Notes under the pieces: generated by a model
Told to the model about the DNA's origin: nothing
Databases searched by the model: none
Seen by the model: only the letters and a program-made list of their open reading frames with translations
Position numbers and translations under genes: made by a program
In this document: piece after piece, positions 1,148 to 57,010 of the stretch
Layout of the letters: each line of letters opens with the position of its first letter
Position numbering within the stretch: the first letter of the stretch is position 1
Source of the DNA: Eublepharis macularius
Taxonomy: Eukaryota > Chordata > Lepidosauria > Squamata > Eublepharidae
Assembly (NCBI RefSeq): GCF_028583425.1
Contig: NC_072791.1
Coordinates: forward strand, 15,829,868-15,893,867
Direction of reading: 5' to 3'
DNA: 64,000 nucleotides

Positions 1148-1290
1148 CGGAGAGGGGCTGTGGCTGAGTGGTAGAGTATCAGCTTGGCATGCAGAAGGTC
1201 CCAGCTTCACCCCGTGGCATCTCCAGTTAAAAGGGTCCAGGTAGTAGATTCTGTGAAAGACACCTACTCTAGGCCCCAGAGAGCTGCCGC
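1148..1290 (+). mobile_element. tRNA-headed SINE (MIR-like family)
   Basis: GGGGCTGTGGCTGAGTGG opens a tRNA-like head (A box), with GGTCCCAGCTTCACCCC as B box, followed by the aaagacacctactctaggcc body. The same family is seen at 48925-49142, 49640-50405 and 57778-57960. Confidence 0.7.
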
Positions 1291-8060: not shown

Positions 8061-10980
8061 AAATACCTCTTCCCAGGTGATGCCAACCATCAGAAATTTT
8101 TACAGCTTACTTTGGGCGGGGATAAATGTTGCCTGGATGTGGCTTTGTAGTCAGTCAAAATGTTGGGTTTTTTTAAGCAATTCATTTAGGTAACTAGTTG
8201 ACTAAACGTTGCAGCTCTAATTACTCTGATGATGTTCTGAAAGCCTACTGAAATGGTGAGGGCTTTGTGACGGATCTCCAGTTCCTGCGGGTGCCGATAA
8301 CTCAGGATGGAGGTGGCTGAAGGGTTGTGGGCATCCAGGGGAGCCACTGTGGTTGTTAGATTGTGAGAGCTGGCTGTGGGAGGGAACCCTGTCTTCAAAC
8401 TCTCATTCTGATTTGAAGCTCACTCAGTTGACATCATCCTTCTTGCCTGGCCTAACATATCTCATGAATCTCTTTACGTAGATGTTTTATATGGAGGCCA
8501 GTGTTTAGGGCAGTGGCAAGAAAGTGGGCCTTGGCCAAAAGAAAGCTGGGTTCTGATCCCCCGCTTGGCCTTGAAACTTTGGAGAAGGCACTCTGTGTCT
8601 AACCCAGCCTCCAAGTTTCTTTTGAGAATAAAAACAGGGAAAACCTCAACTCTTTGGAGAAAGAGCTTGGTTATAAATGTGATAACGAAGAGCCAGAAAA
8701 GTAATTTTGCTACACGCAAGAAGCAAGTTAGCTAAGAGAAACCATCACGACTTTAAAGGTAATTTAAAAATTGGCAAATAGTTTCTAAAGGCCACAATGC
8801 AGACAGAAAGATATCCAGTTGGTCTCATCCTGGATATTGGGAGAACCTTTTGGGCTCTCTTCCCCACTTGCATTCGAATTCCGTCCTCCTTTCCTCTTCC
8901 AGAAGTAGCTGTGGTAGCATTAGGTGGGTACACCGAGGTTAACGCTAACTATGGCTAGTTCAAACCCAGTTCTACCTACTTTGGGTTGTAGCTAGCCATG
9001 GTTTGGTGCAGATACAACGCCAACTGTGCTTAGCTCTGAAAAGGTAAGGAAGGAAATTGGGTGGCAGGGGGAGGAGACAGGAACAGCACGCAGGTCTCCT
9101 TGGTTCACTTGATCATCTAACTATGGTTAGAAGATTGGGAAGTGTTATGACTTTACCGGGTCCAAGTATGAAATTCATCATTACCAAGACATAGTGATTT
9201 AGGCAAGTGCCTTCACCAAGGAAAATGGTACCTAGGCAAGAAACTCTCGAGTAGTCCAGTGGCCGACATCTTACCGTCTGTCCTGGATACAAAGAAAGCC
9301 CAAGTATTTATTTGCAGAGGGGACTTCTGATCCCTAGCCAAGGATTGTCAGGGCAGGACTTCGTGACCAGAAATGACACAAACCACTCTTGTGAACAAAC
9401 ATACATTGTTCAAAGCAGCATGAAGACTAAACCTGTTGGCTGTTAAAGCAATCCCATAATGTTACAGTTTGCAAGCTTGTCTGGAAACCCAAGAACCAGT
9501 TGTGAGGAGAACTTATTGGAGTCCAGAGGTCTGAGGTCTGAATAACAGTTGGGAATTACCTCAGACAGGGATTTGAGTACTTGCAGTTACCACTAAATGG
9601 TTCTGGGGGTTTCAAGATGGCGTCAGCCATATGGAAAGTTCTCAGGCTGCCCAAACTGGGCAGAGCTACTGAATTCTCAGAGCTTATTCTAACTGAGGGT
9701 GAATCAAGTATTTTTTTTTGTAACACAGTAAGTAGGTGAAGTGTTTCTGGATTGCAACAGGGATAACAACAGTCTGGCCAGTTGCAGATGTACTTAACAT
9801 AGCAGTCTGTTCCCAAAAGTCAGATTGAATTTCTAGAAATGAGAAAGAAAGGCCTTATTTGTTAGCGTGGTTAATTATGCCAACAAAATGGATGCCTGTG
9901 GGCAATTGTGAGGCGATTGGGGACAATTTGGAAATCCCACCTCCTCTCCCCAAATTCCCTCTCTAGGATTCAGTCTTCCTACCATTTTCTCCCTCAGCTG
10001 TCTATCCTTTCTAAAATGTGTTCAAGTCTTTCTGAGGCTGCTTTTTAATGGATTTTTTCCATTCTCCCCCCCCCTCCTCCACAAGTTAGTAGATACCCAT
10101 ATTTTGTCGAGGGGTTTTTTTTTCTGTTGATTTCATCACCCCCATTGGAGGACGGTGGCCAAATTTACGGTTAGCTACAGCGATGTGTTTGTATCGGACT
10201 GGCATTGTTCAAAACACATCATCTGTATTATCATGATTATCTTTACAACTGCCTTGTAAGGTAGACCATTATTATTATACCCGGGTTAAGAAGGGGGTGG
10301 CTTACCTAAGGCCACCTAGTAAATCTGTGGCTAGGATGAGTTTTGAAACACCATTGTTCTTCCCCTCACCCTTCCTCTAGTAGAGAACAAAGAATGTGTA
10401 TGTTTTCATGGGGCAGAAGAAAGTTAGCTGTTAGCCACTCTTGGTGAACATAGTTTCAAGTGGTTAGTCACGTGGGTCTCCAACAGAGAGCTAGATTTGA
10501 ATCCAGTAGCATCTAGACGTTTCCAGGGAATAAGTTTCAAGGGTCAATCTTGTTGATCTTCAAGGCGCTACTGGACTCAAAGCTTACTCTTCTTGGCTGT
10601 CAGTTTCTGCTCTGTACTATCATGAAACTCATACTTTGATATAGTTTCTGCCTGGTAAAAGAGATCACGGGCATAGCCAGTGATATGAATTTATACTGGT
10701 CCTTGTTAGGTACATGAGGGTTATCGTCTTTATCTTTGAAATAGGAGTTGAAAAGCATCTCTCTGATTACATTTTTATCCCATTTTCTCTTCAAGGAGCT
10801 CAGGGTTCTTCCCTACATTTTATCTTCACAACAATCCTGTGATGTAGGAGAAGGTGACTGGCCTGTGATTACTACTGGCCCTAGTAAGCATTGTGGCAGA
10901 GTGGAGATTTAAACCCTGGTTTGCCCAGTATGAGTCCAACACTAGTCCCTAACTATACCAAGACCTCCTTTGTTGGAGTC
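8060..10980. other. Intergenic stretch, scattered SINE fragments
   Basis: Degraded tRNA-SINE pieces at about 8500-8690 (+), 10220-10340 (-) and 10800-10960 (-), and a tail fragment of the 22701 repeat family at 10540-10582. The rest is plain sequence with no gene seen. Confidence 0.45.
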
Positions 10981-18073: not shown

Positions 18074-20220
18074 GGCAGTGACTTAAGGCCAAGATGGCAA
18101 GAACCAGCCACAGCAATTATGTCCTGCAGCAGCTCAACAACCAAAGAGAGTGGGGCTTCCTCTGCGACTGTTGCATTGCTATCGATGACATTTACTTCCA
18201 GGCTCACAAAGCGGTCTTGGCTGCCTGCAGCTCTTACTTCCGGATGTTTTTCATGAGCCATCAGCACAGCATGGCCCAGCTGAATCTGAGCAACATGAAG
18301 ATCACAGCCGAATGCTTCGATCTCATTTTACAGTTTATGTATTTAGGGAAAATCATGACGGCCCCAGCCAACTTCGAGCAGTTTAAGTTGGCGATGAGCT
18401 CTCTGCAGCTCTACAACGTGCCGGAATGTTTAGAAGACATCCAAGATACCCACTCGCCCAGCTTGCGGTGCTCCTCTTCCGCTTCCAGCTCTCAGAATAG
18501 CAAGATGATCTTCGGTGTGCGGATGTATGAAGACACACCAGCTAGAAACGGGAGTGAAGCAAACAGGTGGGGTGTGGAGCCGCCAAGTTCAACGGTCAGC
18601 ACGTCCCATAGTAGGGAGGCTGACGAGGAAGCTTTGCAGCTGAGCCGTTTCCCCGAGCAACTCTTGGATGGTTGGAAAAGGAGTACTGTGCCCAAGCTCT
18701 CCAGCACCAAAGACCGGGTGTCCAACTCTCGGCGCTTTGGAAGAAGTTTCACCTGTGACGGTTGTGGCTTCAGTTTCAGCTGCGAAAGGCTATTGGACGA
18801 GCACATCATGTCATGCACTAACAGGCATTCCTATCAGAACTCCAAGTATTATGGGGCTGAAAAAAATGACTTCAGCGAGGGAGAGTCTGCTTCTAAAACA
18901 CCGTCTTCTCAATCGGACAAACATAAAGGAAACACGAGCCAAGGCGAGGATGGGTCTTTATCTCCAGCCTCCAATGTCACAAGCCGAAAAGGCAGTGCTG
19001 TCTCATTGGAACCTTCGAGCGAAGAGCGAAGCAGAGCCACAGAGAGGAAAAGAATTATCGTCAAGATGGAGCCAGCCGACAACCCGATTGATGACCTGAA
19101 AGAGTTTAACATCATTAAAGTGACAGATGGCAACGAATCCACCGACAATGATGAGCTCGATGATGACGAGACGGTTTACAGGTACTACATTGAGGAAGAG
19201 GTCAATGAAAACAGGAGGGTAAGAAAAGCTCTCTTAAAAGCCCAAGTGCCTACTGACGAAGAAGATAAGAAATACATGAGAAGTACGAGACTCCTGAATA
19301 ACAAAGTCAGTGCTGCTAAGGAGGATTCCGAAAACGCGTCCTGCGAACTGTGCGGGCTGACAATCACAGAAGAGGACCTCTCTTCGCATTACTTATCCAA
19401 ACACATAGAGAATATATGCGCATGTGGGAAGTGTGGTCAGATATTAGTCAAAGGCCGGCAGTTGCAGGACCATGCGCAGACATGCGGAGAACCCCAAGAC
19501 CTGACAACGAATGGTTTAAGAAATAACGAGGAGAAACTTGACTTGGAAGAAAACTCAGAGGAACAATCCGAAATGCGAGAGATGATGTACGTGGACATGC
19601 TGGATGAGTTTGGAGATGGCCATTTCCAGATGAACAGTCTTCCGAAAAAACAGCTGTACAGAGAGTCCGCCTGCCCTTTTCGGTGTCCTAACTGCAGCCA
19701 ACGTTTTGAAACAGAAAGCTTAGTGGTTGAGCACATGTCCAGCTGCCTAGAGCAAGATCTGTTCAAGAATGCCATGATGGAAGAGAATGAAAGGGATCAT
19801 CGCCGCAAACATTTCTGTAGCCTTTGTGGGAAAGGATTTTATCAGCGCTGTCACTTGCGGGAACACTATACTGTGCACACCAAGGAAAAACAGTTTGTTT
19901 GCCAGACGTGCGGGAAGCAGTTTCTACGAGAACGCCAGCTGCGTCTTCACAACGACATGCACAAAGGCATGGCCAGGTACGTCTGCTCCATTTGTGACCA
20001 GGGAAACTTTCGGAAACATGATCACGTGAGACACATGATATCCCACCTGTCAGCCGGAGAGACTATCTGCCAGGTCTGCTTTCAGATTTTCCCCAATAAT
20101 GAACAATTGGAACAACATATGGATGTTCACCTCTACACCTGTGGTGTTTGCGGAGCTAAATTTAATTTGAGAAAAGACATGAGATCTCACTATAATGCTA
20201 AGCATTTGAAACGAACATAA
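18074..20220 (+). CDS. ZBTB1: ZBTB1, BTB/POZ and C2H2 zinc-finger transcription factor (coding exon)
   Basis: Single uninterrupted frame from the ATG at 18094 to the stop ending at 20220, 708 codons; the human protein is about 713. The exon opens after a long pyrimidine tract ending in CAG at 18071-18073, so about 20 bases of 5' UTR precede the ATG. The BTB domain fills roughly residues 1-115 ([25 protein letters not shown]). Eight C2H2-type fingers are readable: one near 219-245, one near 417-440, and six packed from about 529 to the end (for example [10 protein letters not shown] and [10 protein letters not shown]). A sumoylation-type site, IIVKMEP, has its lysine at 324, matching a SUMO site known in the human protein. 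The family represses transcription in the nucleus and is needed for lymphocyte development and replication-stress responses (established knowledge). The coding region in one exon is usual for this gene. The upstream non-coding exon was not found. The long match to the remembered human sequence makes the identity near certain. Confidence 0.97.
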
Positions 20221-22590: not shown

Positions 22591-23125
22591 TCCCCCCCCT
22601 AACTTAGGATCCCCAAGGCAGCAAACAATAAAAACATTAAAAGAATCTGAAAAAAACATGCCTGCAGATATAACAACCATTAACGATCATTAAAGTACAT
22701 CTGACGAAGAGAACTGAGATTCTCGAAAGCTTATGCTACAATAAAGTTGGTTAGTCTTAAAGGTGCTACTGGACTCTTTTTGATTTTGCTACTACTGACT
22801 AACACGGCTAACTCCTCGGCATAAAGTACATATAAAACAACTGCTAAAAATAAATAAAACGTTGACATGAATGGAAAGGAAGATCAATGAGGGAATGCCA
22901 GAAAAACAGAAAAGTCTTCACCTGCTGGCTAAAGATAAAGGGCGACAGACGAATCTCTCGGCAGGGAGTGCAGTAGTTTTGGTGTCATGACCGAAGAAGA
23001 GGCCCTTTCTCAGGTTACCACCTGCCTGGCCTAGAAGGCGGTCTGCCTGAAGCAGGGCCTCTGGAGATGACTGTAGCGGTTGGGTAAGTTCATACGGGAG
23101 TGGGTGGTCATGTTGCCCTCGTGTA
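22590..23125 (-). mobile_element. L2-like LINE 3' region, split by a short repeat
   Basis: Left part 22590-22700, right part 22832-23125 (GAAAAGTCTTCACCTGCTGG, GACCGAAGAAGAGGCCC). Interrupted by the element at 22701-22821. Confidence 0.7.
22701..22821 (+). mobile_element. 121-bp retroposon-like repeat with hammerhead-like 5' end
   Basis: Flanked by the 10-bp duplication TAAAGTACAT at 22691-22700 and 22822-22831. It starts exactly with CTGACGA, then one base, then the stem GAGAA/TTCTC (22709-22713 with 22720-22724), then GAAA, then AGC/GCT. The rest (GGTGCTACTGGACTC, GACTAACACGGC) is a common amniote dispersed repeat. Related pieces at 10540, 37201, 51440 and 54040. Confidence 0.8.
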
Positions 23126-34330: not shown

Positions 34331-34464
34331 CTGAACTACTGCGACGGCAACGGCAGATCGCGCCTGACTTTCGAGCCGAAGGAGCGGGCAGCAGCTGAGA
34401 GGATTTGATAGACGGTTTCTCGGCGCGGCTTCTGAGAAGCTCTTCTGACCGCGTAGCAGCAACC

Positions 34465-36357
34465 ATGTCGGGCAAGGCGCCTGCCATAGGCATCGACTTG
34501 GGCACCACGTACTCCTGCGTGGGGGTCTTCCAGCATGGGAAGGTGGAGATCATCGCCAACGACCAAGGCAACCGCACCACGCCCAGCTACGTGGCCTTCA
34601 CGGACACCGAGCGCCTCATCGGGGATGCAGCCAAGAACCAGGTGGCCATGAACCCCAACAACACCATCTTTGACGCCAAGCGCCTCATCGGCCGCAAATT
34701 CGACGACCCCACCGTCCAGTCGGACATGAAGCACTGGCCTTTCCGGGTGGTCAGCGAGGGGGGCAAACCCAAAGTGCAGGTGGAGTACAAGGGAGAGGTG
34801 AAGGACTTTTTCCCAGAGGAGATCTCCTCCATGGTCCTGACCAAGATGAAGGAGATTGCTGAAGCCTACCTGGGGCGCAAGGTGCAGAGCGCTGTCATCA
34901 CCGTGCCGGCTTACTTCAATGACTCCCAGCGCCAAGCCACCAAAGATGCAGGCACCATCACCGGGCTCAATGTCCTGCGCATCATCAACGAGCCCACAGC
35001 AGCAGCCATTGCCTACGGCTTGGATAAAAAGGGCAGCGGTGGTGGGGAGAAGAATGTGCTGATCTTTGACCTGGGTGGTGGCACTTTTGACGTCTCCATC
35101 TTGACCATTGAGGACGGCATCTTTGAGGTGAAGTCGACGGCTGGGGACACTCACCTGGGTGGTGAGGACTTTGACAACCGGATGGTGAGCCACTTTGTGG
35201 AGGAGTTCAAGCGCAAGCACAAGCGTGACATTGCTGGCAACAAGCGGGCTGTCCGGCGGCTCCGCACAGCCTGCGAGAGGGCCAAGCGCACCCTCAGCTC
35301 CTCCACCCAAGCCTCCATCGAGATCGACTCCTTGTTTGATGGGATTGACTTCTACACGTCTATCACCCGGGCCCGCTTTGAGGAGCTCAACGCCGACCTC
35401 TTCCGGGGCACTCTGGAGCCTGTGGAAAAGGCCTTGCGGGATGCCAAGCTAGACAAAGGGCAGATCAATGAGATTGTGCTGGTGGGAGGCTCCACTCGGA
35501 TCCCCAAGATCCAGAAGCTGCTGCAGGATTTTTTCAACGGCAAAGAGCTCAACAAGAGCATCAATCCTGATGAAGCTGTGGCCTATGGCGCAGCTGTGCA
35601 GGCTGCTATCCTGATGGGTGACAAGTCTGAGAATGTTCAAGATCTGCTGCTGCTTGATGTTGCCCCCTTGTCCCTGGGCATCGAGACAGCTGGTGGGGTG
35701 ATGACAGCTTTGATCAAGCGCAACACCACTATTCCCACCAAGCAGACACAGACCTTCACCACCTATTCAGACAACCAGAGCAGCGTCCTTGTGCAGGTGT
35801 ATGAGGGCGAGAGGGCCATGACCAAGGACAATAACCTGCTGGGCAAGTTTGACCTGACAGGGATCCCACCAGCTCCCCGTGGTGTCCCCCAGATCGAGGT
35901 CACATTTGACATAGATGCCAATGGGATCCTCAATGTCACAGCTGTGGATAAGAGCACTGGCAAAGAGAACAAGATTACCATTACAAATGACAAGGGCCGC
36001 CTCAGCAAAGATGACATCGACCGTATGGTGCAGGAAGCAGAGAGGTACAAGGCCGAAGATGAGGCCAATCGGGAGCGGGTGGTCGCCAAGAACGCCCTGG
36101 AATCTTACGCCTACAACGTAAAGCAGACAGTGGAAGACGAAAAGCTGAAAGGCAAGATTGGGGACCAGGACAAGCAGAGGGTCCTGGAGAAGTGCCAAGA
36201 GGTGATCAGCTGGCTGGATCGCAACCAGATGGCCGAGAAGGAAGAGTTTGAGCACAAGCAAAAGGAGTTGGAGAAGCTTTGCAACCCCATCATGACCAAA
36301 TTGTACCAGGGGGCTGGAGCAGCAGGTGGTGGGCCCACCATTGAAGAAGTGGACTAG
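34465..36357 (+). CDS. HSPA2: HSPA2, cytosolic Hsp70 chaperone (intronless)
   Basis: Start chosen at 34465 (aaccATGtcgggc, good Kozak context), giving 630 residues; the frame is open 20 codons further upstream, but that stretch is 5' UTR downstream of the TATA box. Hsp70 signatures are present: IDLGTTYS at residues 10-17, [11 protein letters not shown] near 201-211 and [13 protein letters not shown] at 338-350. The interdomain linker [13 protein letters not shown] and the C-terminal EEVD (627-630), which binds TPR co-chaperones, are also present. It hydrolyses ATP to fold client proteins with J-domain partners and exchange factors. The N terminus ([17 protein letters not shown]) and the site downstream of ZBTB1 fit HSPA2 rather than HSPA1 or HSPA8; chicken inducible HSP70 is the ortholog at this locus (established knowledge). 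The glycine-rich tail before EEVD is about nine residues shorter than in human HSPA2. The coding sequence is much more GC-rich than its flanks, as expected of an intronless CpG-island gene. Confidence 0.96.
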
Positions 36358-36755
36358 ATTGCTTTGGACTGGACTGTGGGAGCAATTTCACCCTGCTCTT
36401 CTGTTACTGCCATTCAGTCAGTGCCATTACTGGAGGGGTTTTCCTGCGGGAGGGTGTGGGAGCAGGTCCTAATTTGCTCTCTGCTGTACCTGGGAATACA
36501 CAGCCAGCTAAGTTTGTTGCCGATAGCGTTTGTTTTACTATTCAGATGCCCATGCTATTCGGTAGATTTGTTTCTTATGTTCACTGTTCTTAAAAATGCA
36601 CTTGAGCATTACCATTGAAAGGGGGTGGAGGGAAGAAACATTTCAAGAGAGCATGGAAAATGTTATGCATACAAAATATCTTTAAAGTTTTTGGAAACTC
36701 TTGGTCTGGTTTATTTTGAAATTTTGGTAATAAAAGTTCCTTGAAGCAAAACAAA
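36358..36755 (+). other. HSPA2: HSPA2 3' UTR with poly(A) signal
   Basis: Unique sequence after the stop, with AATAAA at 36729-36734 about 370 bases downstream. Cleavage is expected within 10-30 bases of it. No repeat interrupts this stretch. Confidence 0.8.
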
Positions 36756-36759
36756 GCTC

Positions 36760-38350
36760 TCTTATTTCTAAAAATAAGTTTACTTTTAATGGGATAGAAG
36801 AGTAGAGATTATGGGTTTAGTGATGCTAAGAGCTGTGATAGAAAATGAGGCCAAGTGTTTGCACTTCCACTGTAGAAACTAATTGCCAGCATCTCTTGAA
36901 AATCCTGAAATGCTGGTCTTCTCAGGCAAAGCACCTCTGCTTATAGTCTACTTCAATAAGCTCTACCTGTTGGTAAAGATAGAATTCCTAAAATGGGAAA
37001 GTGGAGGGAATGGGGTTGAATTTTTCATATAGGTTTATTAAAGTTTCTTTTTTATGCCACTAACTGCTGTGACAACAGGCAGTAATTCATTTGCATCTTG
37101 TTCTTCAACAGGCAAAGCTTTTCCTGTGTTATGTTTCTATGCTCTGCCGATTTGCTTAAGAATTGCCTGTCCTGCAAATTTAAAGGCACAGGAGTAGAAA
37201 AGAATAAGAGTCCAGGAGCACCTATAAGACTAACAAAATTTGTGGTAGGGTAGGAGCTTTCGTGAGTCACAGCTCACTTCTTTAGAGTATCTGAAGGCAG
37301 GCGGGTTCTCAGAAAAAAGTGATCATACTCTTTTTACTAGCAAGTGGGATTGGGTTCTCCAGGTTTTTTTTAAAAAAAGTTAGTAGTACTAATTGTTTTG
37401 AACACTGTGGTTGGGCTTCCAAAATTAATACCATCACAACTCTCCCAAGCTGCAATTAGTTTTGCTGTGGGTGGGCAGAGGCAGATACAGCATTGAGGGA
37501 GGGGGGGGTCGGCTTGCCAACAGACCTGGAGAAAAATGCCCTGTCCTTTTAATGGACTGTGTACTCCCTCCATGCCATGAAAAGCAAGTTGTGGGATGCT
37601 TTAATCTCCAGATCTGTTGGCAACCCTGGAAGCTGCAGAATTATAACACAAGATCTGGGGCACTGATAAAAAACTTTCTTGTCACTCTTGGCAGGCTACC
37701 TGCAAGAAAAGGGTAGATAGGTTTTTACAGCTATAGGATTGCCAGCACTGCAGACTTGGAGAAAAAAAGTCCTGTCTCTTTAACACAGGCTAGTATGTGG
37801 GAAAGGGCAGCTCTTTTCTTGGCATGCAGGTAAATATTCTCTGGTGAGCAACACCCAATTAAGCATGGGAGAAACATCCTCTTTAAGATCTGTTGTGGGG
37901 GAAAGGACACAACAGAAAACAACTGAATTGAAGCATGAGATTGGTCTTATTCACAGCTGTTCCACATCATGTCTTGTTTGGACCTTACTTTAAATCTCCC
38001 AAGTCAACTAGCTTGAAAATGGGGGATTCAGGATTAAAATAGTGTTAAAAATGGCTGCTGTTGTCAACCACACTCAGATCCCAGTAGTTTTCTTTTGGAG
38101 TCTGCAACTAACTGGATTCTAAAAAGCAGAGGAGTTAAACAATTTCATGACTTCACATGGTGGCCTGCCTTTGTAATTAGTTAACTGTGTAATTAAACCA
38201 GTTCAGTAGCTGACACCAGCATAAAAACAGTTGGGTGGTGCAGATGTCAGCACTCTGATTTGATATCTTTATCTGGCTAAGCAAATGGAGCCTGGTCGGC
38301 ACAAGCAAACCCAAACAATGTGTTATGAAAATACCTTCCCGTGTGATTTC
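36760..38350. repeat. Repeat-bearing intergenic sequence
   Basis: Minus-strand relative of the 22701 repeat at 37201-37290; two hAT-like MITE copies at 37511-37627 (GCCAACAGACCTGGAG to CTGTTGGCAACCCTGG) and 37734-37892. Confidence 0.6.
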
Positions 38351-48924: not shown

Positions 48925-49142
48925 CAGGTCAAAAGAAGAACACGCAGACAACGCTGCCTTATACTAAACGGGCCCATCAGTACAGCCAGTATGGCACGTT
49001 GACAGGCCAGGCTCTCTAGGGTCTTCGGCAAGATCTTTCACACCATCGAGTGCCTGGTCCTTTTTAAGTGGAGGTGCCAGGGACTGAACCTGGGACCTTC
49101 TACATGAAAAGCAGAGGCTCTTCCACTGAGCCACAGCCCCTC
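48925..49142 (-). mobile_element. tRNA-headed SINE (MIR-like family)
   Basis: Minus-strand head at right: GGGGCTGTGGCTCAGTGGAA, B box GGTCCCAGGTTCAGTCCC; body AAAGATCTTGCCGAAGACCC. Confidence 0.8.
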
Positions 49143-50701: not shown

Positions 50702-51858
50702 CTATAGGATTGGGGTGAGGCAAGAAGGCAGCAGAAAGGAGGGAACAGGGCCAATAAAGTCAGGTAGCAGCCCTATTGTTATTGCAGATCCTGAGGCATA
50801 AACTCTGAAGATCCTCAGGAAAGACATGTTTATTTGCTCTTCAGAGGAGGTAAGCTGCCCCTCCTTTCCTGGCCAGTCAGAAGAAAAACTGGTAACGGTG
50901 CCTTTGGGCAAGTGACTAATTATCTCCATTCTCCACCCGTGAAATAAGAACATTATTTTTTTCTCTCTTGGTGTACTTTGAGCCAGAGCTTAGAGCTAAC
51001 GTGCTACCTTCTCCTGGGTGTTGGGAAGCAAGACAAGAGGCGAGGCTCAGAGCTGCAACCAAGTCTGAGACTTTCTTGAGCCTTGCTCAAATGCACAAGA
51101 ATTCTCTTAAGCATGTACAGAGTGCCTTTCCCCTCAGCATTAGCAAGAAGCGGGAATTGTGACACCGGGAATTAGGATTGTGGATGGCTGTGCGTCTCAT
51201 AGTCAGCAATTGTCAGAGTCAGTAAGGTGCAGGAGTTACAGCCTTGAGGACAAAGGATTGTTTTCTCACTACAGATGCTAATTTTCTGCATTTCTGCCCC
51301 TGCTCTAATCAGACTAATTACAATTTCACATTGTATCTCCACATCCTATCTTATTTCTTTGCAATACCCCTCCCACCTTCTCACTGGGATAAAAAGATCT
51401 CCATTCTTACACATATCTGATAAGGGGGGGGGGCTTCCTCTCAAAATCTTGTTGGTCTTTCAGGTGCTACCGGACTCAAATCTTGCTAATCCTGCGTGGG
51501 GAGACCGGTGTTCAAATTTGTACTTATACAACCACACAGGTTGTTATGATAATATAAGGAGGAAGCTCTGTGTGGAGAACTCCCTGAAGGAAAGGTGAGA
51601 ATATGCAAATGTCATGACAAATATTAATCAATATTATGAGCTACCACCACAGACTGAACTTTTCTTCTGCCTTGTCCTCAGCACAATGCACCTTAGCTGA
51701 GAAAGTTCACGGGTCTGTGGCCTGATTTACACATTACATAATACACATAGTATAGCTTGGAGTTCCCACTCTGTGGAACAGGTGTCATTTGTGTGTTCTC
51801 AGTTCCCATGTGTGTAGTGCTCAATCTGCCATGTTTAAAGAAATCAACAGGAGTGTTA
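50702..51858. other. Intergenic stretch without recognised gene
   Basis: A tail of the 22701 repeat family at 51440-51490 (AATCTTGTTGGTCTTTCAGG). Otherwise unassigned. Confidence 0.4.
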
Positions 51859-53799: not shown

Positions 53800-54360
53800 A
53801 GTGCAATGTACTGGTTGGAGTGCTAGACTAAGATCCAAGAAACTCATGTTCGAATCCCTTGAATCCCTGAGTGAATACACTCGCCTACCTCACAGGGTTG
53901 TTGTGAAAAAAAACAGAGGTGAAGTCTCAGGTAGGTGGTCTTGTTGGTCTAATGTACAACAGCAGGATTTGAGTCCTGTGGTGTCTTTGAGATCAACAAG
54001 ATTTTCAGGGTAGACGCTTCAGAGAACTCCCTTCAGGTGTTTGAAAATCTTGTAGGTCTCTAAGGTGCTACTGGACTGAAGAATGGTGTTGTAAGCCGGT
54101 TTGGGTTCTACACTGGGGAGAAAGGCAGAGTAAATTAGGGTTGCCAGCTCCGGTTTGGGAATTTCCTGGAGATTAAGAGATGGAGCCAGGGAAGGGCAGG
54201 GTTTGAGAAGGAGAGGGACCTCAGCAGTAATGCCATAGAGCCCACCCTCCACAGCAGCCATTTTCTCTGTGGTCTGGAGCTAAGTTGTAATTCCAGGAGA
54301 TCTCCAGGTCCCGACTCCCACCTGGAGGTTGGCACCCGAAATGAAGAGTAAATAAATAAT
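53800..54360. mobile_element. tRNA SINE with 22701-family repeat and hAT inside
   Basis: SINE (+) 53800-53925 and 54086-54135; a 22701-family fragment in between (53935-54085); hAT copy at 54136 to about 54344 with GAGTAAAT on both sides. Confidence 0.7.
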
Positions 54361-54786: not shown

Positions 54787-55270
54787 GGGCTTGCCAACTC
54801 AAGGTTGGGGCACTCCGGGAGACTTGGGGGTGGAGGGGGGATCTAAGTAGGGCATAATGCCATATAGTCCACCTGCCAAAGCAACCATAGGTAATGCACA
54901 GAAATGAACCCATATAATAATGCTATAGACGGTGCACTCCAAATAGGGTTGCCAGCTCCAGGTTGGAAAATTCCTGGAGATTTTTGGGGGCGGGGCCTGA
55001 AGAGGGTGGGGTTTGAGGAGGGGAAGGGCCTCAGTGGGGTATAATTCCATAGAGTTCACCCTTTAAAGCAGCCGTTTTCTCCAGGGGAACTGCTCTCTGT
55101 TGCCTGGAGATCAGTTGTAATTCCGGGAGATCTCCAGCTGTCACCTGGAGGCTGGCAAGCCTAACTCCAAAGCGACCATTTTCTCCAGGGGGAGCTGATG
55201 TCTGGGGCTTGGAGATGTTGTAATTCCAGGAGATCTCCAGGCCCCACCTGGAGGATGGCAACCCTAGCAC
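54787..55270. mobile_element. PPP1R36: Nested TAGGGTT-family hAT copies in intron 1
   Basis: Inner copy 54944-55163 with exact duplication ACTCCAAA (54936-54943 and 55164-55171). It lies inside an older copy whose halves are 54787-54943 and 55164-55266. Confidence 0.88.
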
Positions 55271-56210: not shown

Positions 56211-57010
56211 ATACAATCACAACCTCCTGGTTGCCAATCAAAACATTTGGAAATACACAACCCAAAAATCCCAAGTGACAAGAAAGTCTGAAATCAGCAA
56301 GCGTATCTAGTGAGATTTACTTAATGCGTAACCTGCAAAATAGCTTCAAATAATTTCAAATAATATACAGGTAAACAGGGTTCATACATGAGAAATACAA
56401 TATGAAGAACAAGAGCAAACAATGTTACATGTGCACAATGGCAGGGTCAAAATAAAGTCTACTATACAATAAATCCAAGTGGTGGTTCCAGTGGTAATGA
56501 AGGGCAGGGTTCTTCCACAGTCACAAAGGACTGGGTCTCCTCCTCTGCGCTACGGGTTTCAGCCAGCAGGATTTCCAATACCCGTTTTGTTGGTCAATTC
56601 ATCAGGCTAATATTCCAACTGGATAGTCGCCACACAGTTCATAATCTTACTTGACCCAAATCTTCATCAATCAATCATCAATTACCCTGTTTATTGATGG
56701 TTGTTGTGGGTTTTCCGGGCTGTATTGCCGTGGTCTTGGCATTGTAGTTCCTGACGTTTCGCCAGCAGCTGTGGCTGGCATCTTCAGAGGTGTAGCACCA
56801 ATTTTCCGGCAATACAGCCCGGAAAACCCACAACAACCATCGTTCTCCGGCCGTGAAAGCCTTCGACAATACCTGTATATTATTTGAAATTATTTGAAGC
56901 TATTTTGCAGGTTACGCATTAAGTAAATCTCACTAGATACGCTTGCTGATTTCAGACTTTCTTGTCACTTGGGATTTTTTGGTTGTGTATTTCCTTGTCT
57001 AGACCCAGTG
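56211..57010. mobile_element. PPP1R36: Long inverted repeat with nested hairpin repeat in intron 1
   Basis: Outer arms of about 120 bp, 56255-56372 and 56870-56990, are near-exact reverse complements (AAATCTCACTAGATACGCTT / AAGCGTATCTAGTGAGATTT). Inside, 56700-56850 is a known amniote repeat type with its own inverted ends (GTTGTGGGTTTTCCGGGCTG) and a hammerhead-like core at 56752-56790. A TCATCAGG motif is at 56598-56605. Confidence 0.75.

Follow-up and report, generated by a model that had tools for sequence, protein, structure and literature searches.

Probable relics of minimal Penelope-type hammerheads in short insertions of the Eublepharis macularius genome

Penelope-like elements (PLEs) can carry minimal type I hammerheads, for which the founding papers are reportedly those of Cervera and de la Pena (2014) and Lunse et al. 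(2017). Minimal type I motifs in PLEs are described in the available parts of PMC6155905, PMC7761336, PMC7229834, PMC6466107 and PMC8490949. As far as the accessible text of the first four goes, these hammerheads have nearly no helix III and no loop contacts and are found in pLTRs or dispersed, features shared with the motifs described here, and they are thought to act as dimers. Animal retrozymes resemble the motifs described here in being non-coding and in containing a type I hammerhead, but they consist of tandem units of ~150-300 bp (330-350 bp in axolotl), whereas none occur at the loci in question, and their hammerheads are mostly canonical with loop contacts (PMC7229834, PMC7761336, available parts).

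PAc, a Poseidon-type PLE of the green anole Anolis carolinensis, contains a hammerhead that overlaps the start of its ORF. In the accessible parts of PMC11167929 the ORF begins at stem II, C3 and G8 of the hammerhead precede the start codon, and the cut lies 26 nt past that codon. Cleavage occurred only with the protein present; it was abolished by either C3G or G8C and partly restored in the double mutant. The same text reports that insertion in vitro proceeded without a need for cleavage and that none of the RNA reads had an end at the cut site. Reverse transcription starts inside the RNA, mainly at +111-118 of the ORF, and the tail corresponds to the sequence lying between two such starts. 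Each of the two DNA strands is cut and extended, and extension of both was observed in vitro (PMC11167929, available parts). The bdelloid elements Pen1-Pen6_Av display head-to-head inverted pLTRs, a 31-bp tail and target duplications of 8-10 bp (PMC3846280, available parts).

The window considered here is a single stretch of 64,000 nucleotides (64 kb) of Eublepharis macularius DNA, analysed over its whole length. It contains a BTB/C2H2 zinc-finger gene (18082-20217, plus strand) and an HSPA2-like gene (34399-36354, plus strand), the best solved relative of which is HSPA2 (5fpn). We take this pair to resemble the ZBTB1-HSPA2 neighbourhood of amniotes. Opposite the HSPA2-like gene, on the minus strand at 34339-36387, two ORFs match Pfam NAD-GH, presumably a spurious family of antisense HSP70 frames. 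A tRNA-Glu (TTC) is located at 49068-49140 (minus strand) by both ARAGORN and Rfam, and a weak tRNA-like match at 1154-1225 (plus strand) by Rfam only. The window also contains a degenerate GC-rich minisatellite with a ~52-bp unit (1850-2381) and, at 55075-55266, a tandem pair of ~103-bp units with many CTCCAGG/CCTGGAG inverted motifs.

A sequence-only reading of this DNA had picked out three hammerhead-like motifs, and re-reading the window bore out both their positions and their letters. The motifs lie within three short insertions, referred to as A, B and C, and in each of them one extra base is found between the core and helix II. In a canonical hammerhead helix II directly abuts the core with no extra base, and the three motifs are therefore not filed as canonical hammerheads. 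The letters of the core (CUGANGA) and of GAAA are intact in A and C and not in B, which reads CUAAAGA. This deviation had been recorded as CTAAAGA for a copy at 37201, correctly, and it means that the core of B has lost G5. As G5 is essential for hammerhead activity, active ribozymes at all three sites are ruled out.

The three motifs are most probably relics of minimal type I PLE-type hammerheads, contained in short pLTR insertions that would belong to two Penelope-like families. This reading is well supported by comparison for C, and for A and B it is probable from the shared layout and the anatomy of the insertions. The minimal PLE form proposed from the sequence alone thus stands for C by its position relative to PAc and stands as probable for A and B by layout; it does not extend to the core of B. 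The accompanying comparison with retrozymes is unsupported, because no tandem arrays overlap the three loci.

The layout occurs more often than chance would give. Exactly three sites in the 64-kb window combine CT[AG]ANGA with a single spacer base, a stem of five or more pairs and GAAA, whereas the mean of 300 Markov-resampled windows is 0.057 and none of the 300 reaches three. The strict CTGANGA pattern is seen twice against a mean of 0.037, and again none of the 300 resampled windows reaches two. Since the search pattern was itself derived from the three sites, an outside control from viral contigs was added, consisting of 43 stretches (31 + 12, some of them near-duplicates) chosen on the core letters only. 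None of the 43 has a stem of at least five pairs, the maximum being four with the first pair forced by the pattern, and these core matches are for that reason judged to be chance. Allowing longer loops raises the expected number to 0.16 for a one-base spacer; a further site with a two-base spacer (4234, minus strand) surfaced in this way and is taken as chance. The family A patterns and the family C pattern gave no stretches when searched in other sequence collections. It is very improbable that the hammerhead likeness as a whole arose by chance in ordinary repeats. Such an origin would sit well with the short core, with a pattern chosen after the sites had been seen and with the missing Rfam match, but it is opposed by the counts above and by the matching places that the three sites occupy within their insertions, as well as by the positional agreement of C with PAc.

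Copy C provides the closest link to a described element. Its direct part (56696-56806, minus strand) runs from 25 nt upstream of an ATG (56781-56779) through ORF position +86. The hammerhead-like motif (56750-56790, minus strand) reads CCT-CTGAAGA-T-GCCAGC...GCTGGC-GAAA-CGTC-AGG. Helix I is formed from CCT/AGG (3 bp), the core lies at 56787-56781, the extra T at 56780 and GAAA at 56760-56757, and helix II (56779-56774/56766-56761) comprises the 6 bp of GCCAGC/GCTGGC. The extra core base is the T (U in RNA) of the ATG, so that the hammerhead overlaps the start of the ORF. The sequence-only reading had flagged the additional base as non-canonical; it is present in all three motifs, and for family C the caveat is answered by its identity as the U of AUG. 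The frame that starts at this ATG is open for 29 codons in the direct part, and for 39 when it is extended into the opposite strand of the inverted arm described below. By the hammerhead rule the presumed cut falls after 56753, which is after +29 of the ORF and 26 nt past the start codon. In both respects, the ORF starting at stem II and a predicted cut 26 nt past the start codon, C is like PAc as described in the accessible parts of PMC11167929. The agreement is one of positions (PMC11167929, available parts); C itself is a short insert that lacks the remainder of the ORF.

The direct part of C is preceded by an inverted arm (56807-56872, plus strand) that covers sense positions +52 to +116/117. 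The first 35 nt of the arm form a perfect, head-to-head inverted repeat of 56696-56730. The insertion has two ends, at +86 in the direct copy and at +116/117 in the inverted arm, leaving a tail of ~31 nt; the corresponding reverse-transcription starts of PAc lie mainly at +111-118 (PMC11167929, available parts). The insertion is flanked by a target-site duplication that reads, on the minus strand, AATATACAG on the high-coordinate side (56873-56881) and AATAAACAG on the low-coordinate side (56687-56695). The two sides agree at 8 of 9 positions, or 9 of 10 when shifted by one base, a score found in 3.6% of 2000 random boundary pairs. With its ~31-nt tail, 35-nt perfect inverted repeat and 9-bp duplication, C is a small example of the anatomy of the Pen_Av elements. 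Pen1-Pen6_Av are inserts of full or long elements, however, and the word hammerhead is absent from PMC3846280.

Two routes to such an arm can be considered. Self-priming on an antisense template has been proposed for head-to-head pLTRs with palindromes at their junction (PMC3846280, available parts), and it is a possible, if less probable, origin of the inverted arms compared with priming from both ends of the cut target. The two arms of C end at different sense positions (+86 and +116/117) beside a target duplication, which fits independent priming, and PAc extends both strands in vitro (PMC11167929, available parts). Priming from both ends is probably how the arms arose.

Copy A is a 121-bp insertion (22701-22821, plus strand) flanked on both sides by a perfect 10-bp direct repeat, TAAAGTACAT, at 22691-22700 on the left and 22822-22831 on the right. 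All 10 positions match, and an equal score occurs in 0.3% of 2000 random boundary pairs; this duplication is thus the stronger of the two, and both A (10/10) and C (8/9) fall within the ~8-10 bp of PLE target duplications. The hammerhead-like motif of A (22701-22732, plus strand) has the core CTGACGA at 22701-22707, the extra A at 22708 and GAAA at 22725-22728. Helix II pairs GAGAA with TTCTC (22709-22713/22720-22724, 5 bp), helix I reaches 3 bp by using the flank, and the motif does not overlap an ATG. Because A is bounded by the perfect duplication the element starts at the core, as the sequence-only reading had it, although its exact start may shift by as much as 3 nt, the duplication having CAT as its last letters. 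That reading had also supposed the 5' end to be set at this point. The end is real, but the idea that it was produced by ribozyme cleavage is rejected, as the hammerhead rule places the presumed cut 32 nt inside the element, after 22732. The ends of A and C both differ from the cut site, which is consistent with an insertion that does not need cleavage, as for PAc (PMC11167929, available parts).

Family A, to which copies A and B belong, differs from PAc in having no such ORF start (PMC11167929, available parts). No ATG-started open frame crosses A or B, and a coding role for the family is on that account unsupported; A does have one frame that, past a first stop, stays open over 39 codons.

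When the 3' end of A (GGCA, 22812-22821) is placed before its own core (22701-22736), a helix I of five pairs forms with ATGCT, against three with the flank. This pairing is possibly a split hammerhead or possibly a coincidence. Under the first alternative family A would be a ~121-bp non-coding parasite of PLEs with its hammerhead divided between two ends, the 5' end holding the core and the 3' end supplying GGCA for helix I, a reading we hold to be doubtful. Were it true, the ribozyme would form only in tandem or circular RNA, and every insertion would be a circularly permuted copy in which the ribozyme is crippled.

Copy B (37189-37286, minus strand, ends approximate) matches A at 77 of the 100 columns of their alignment. 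Its motif at 37285 (minus strand) consists of CTAAAGA, the extra A, GTGAG/CTCAC and GAAA, with no helix I. Three further copies of family A have decayed hammerheads. D1 (51419-51499, plus strand) is found with E 4.1e-4 from B and 0.0095 from A; D2 (10533-10600, plus strand; nhmmer E 0.097 and 0.13) and E (53949-54034, minus strand; nhmmer E 0.04 and 0.23), the latter with a long tail end, are weak matches alone. These five copies, A, B, D1, D2 and E, are the rows of the family A profile, which gave no matches at E 0.01 in 50 randomised windows. Inverted arms stand in front of D2 (10487-10517, minus strand, E 0.0018) and in front of E (54042-54078, plus strand, E 5.4e-8), each value being obtained with a profile that excluded the stretch concerned. 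Head-to-head inverted arms are hence present in three of the six copies of both families (C, D2 and E). The target duplications of B, D1, D2 and E are not significant.

No alignment is obtained between families A and C. The distance from the first base of the core to the end of the element is 121 in A and ~97 in B, and in C it is 92 and, in the inverted arm, 122/123. We infer that family A is likewise a PLE, mainly because these core-to-end distances and the inverted arms agree with C.

The pairing of helix II can be compared between A and B. All five pairs are kept, and two of them carry double changes (A-T to T-A and A-T to G-C). Among simulations at 20-27% divergence in which all five pairs survive, 0.6-2.3% show at least two double changes; the observed count comes from one pair of copies (A and B). 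The compensated pairs lean slightly towards a paired RNA in the source elements. The sequence-only reading had argued from stems that differ yet still pair at all three loci; the two double changes between A and B agree with this, but C is not homologous by column, so its different stem lies outside strict covariation.

These observations bear on a second interpretation, in which C is a PLE relic while family A (A, B, D1, D2 and E) is an unrelated SINE-like repeat with a stem-loop that merely resembles a hammerhead. The failure of family A to align with C, its lack of an ATG-started frame and the presence of readable stems in only two copies, one of them with a broken core, would all suit such a repeat. 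It would leave aside the core, one-base spacer and GAAA that the family has in common with C, the similar core-to-end distances, the inverted arms at D2 and E that recall that of C, and the compensated changes in helix II; we regard it as unlikely. Two Penelope-like families, each with its own hammerhead relic, is the reading retained below.

A scan with Rfam hammerhead models, suggested by the sequence-only reading, came out negative. The whole window contains no match at the gathering score, and no hammerhead was reported at E up to 10 over 20000-64000, 56730-56820 and 22680-22780, B being covered only by the first of these ranges. Folding of single strands gives z values of -1.70 for C, -0.72 and -0.51 for two lengths of A and -0.41 for B, none significantly stabler than shuffles. 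In the lowest-energy fold of C, UCAG is paired to part of the core and the extra U to the G that opens GAAA; the full helix II is missing from the corresponding fold of B. These predicted single-strand folds speak against a free-standing hammerhead. Two strands of C folded together give -35.5 kcal/mol compared with -14.5 for one, an energy set aside because the predicted pairing does not correspond to the double hammerhead.

A living element would have the fold at the start of its RNA; in family C it would span the ORF start codon. Its parts would be the core CUGANGA followed by the extra base, helix II and GAAA, together with a short helix I and a helix III reduced to a 2-bp palindrome (ACGU or AGCU). 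Alone it would probably be poorly active; assistance may come from another copy on a tandem RNA or from the protein of the element, as in PAc. A live element may use it to cut tandem PLE RNA near the start of the ORF, slowly. Target-primed reverse transcription would begin at an internal point of the RNA, ~90-125 nt downstream of the core. Starts from both cut DNA ends would give the short or long tail ends together with the head-to-head arms of C, D2 and E.

The present copies are a different matter. Four of the six, taken over both families, have a broken core or fold, and A, B, C, D1, D2 and E are decayed and most likely inert. Amniotes do possess ultraconserved intronic hammerheads, as cited in the available parts of PMC7229834, and the core and stem are kept in A and C; adoption of the copies by the host as ribozymes under selection is nevertheless scarcely credible given the four broken copies, the missing Rfam match and the 77% identity of A and B, in which constraint is not apparent.

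The ORF of a PLE encodes a telomerase-like reverse transcriptase and a GIY-YIG endonuclease. The window has 111 listed ORFs of 90 aa or more, and the 10 that were examined contain neither domain. An ORF of this kind is not expected in short pLTR inserts, and the direct part of C holds its first 29 codons only. Copy C is close to what is already known. Family A was not found in the openly readable literature among the matches listed, and a text search of that literature with the letters of the element listed matches with unrelated titles; the family may well be catalogued already in subscription papers, Repbase or Dfam.

The probable remnants of PLE hammerheads and the scars of their insertion, namely tail ends, inverted arms and target duplications, can be read straight from the genome sequence. 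In one family the odd extra base of the core acquires a reason, as it supplies the U of the start codon. Should family A be borne out across the genome, many insertions could serve to test which RNA ends are used, and with that whether ribozyme cleavage has a part in transposition, which PAc did not need for insertion in vitro.
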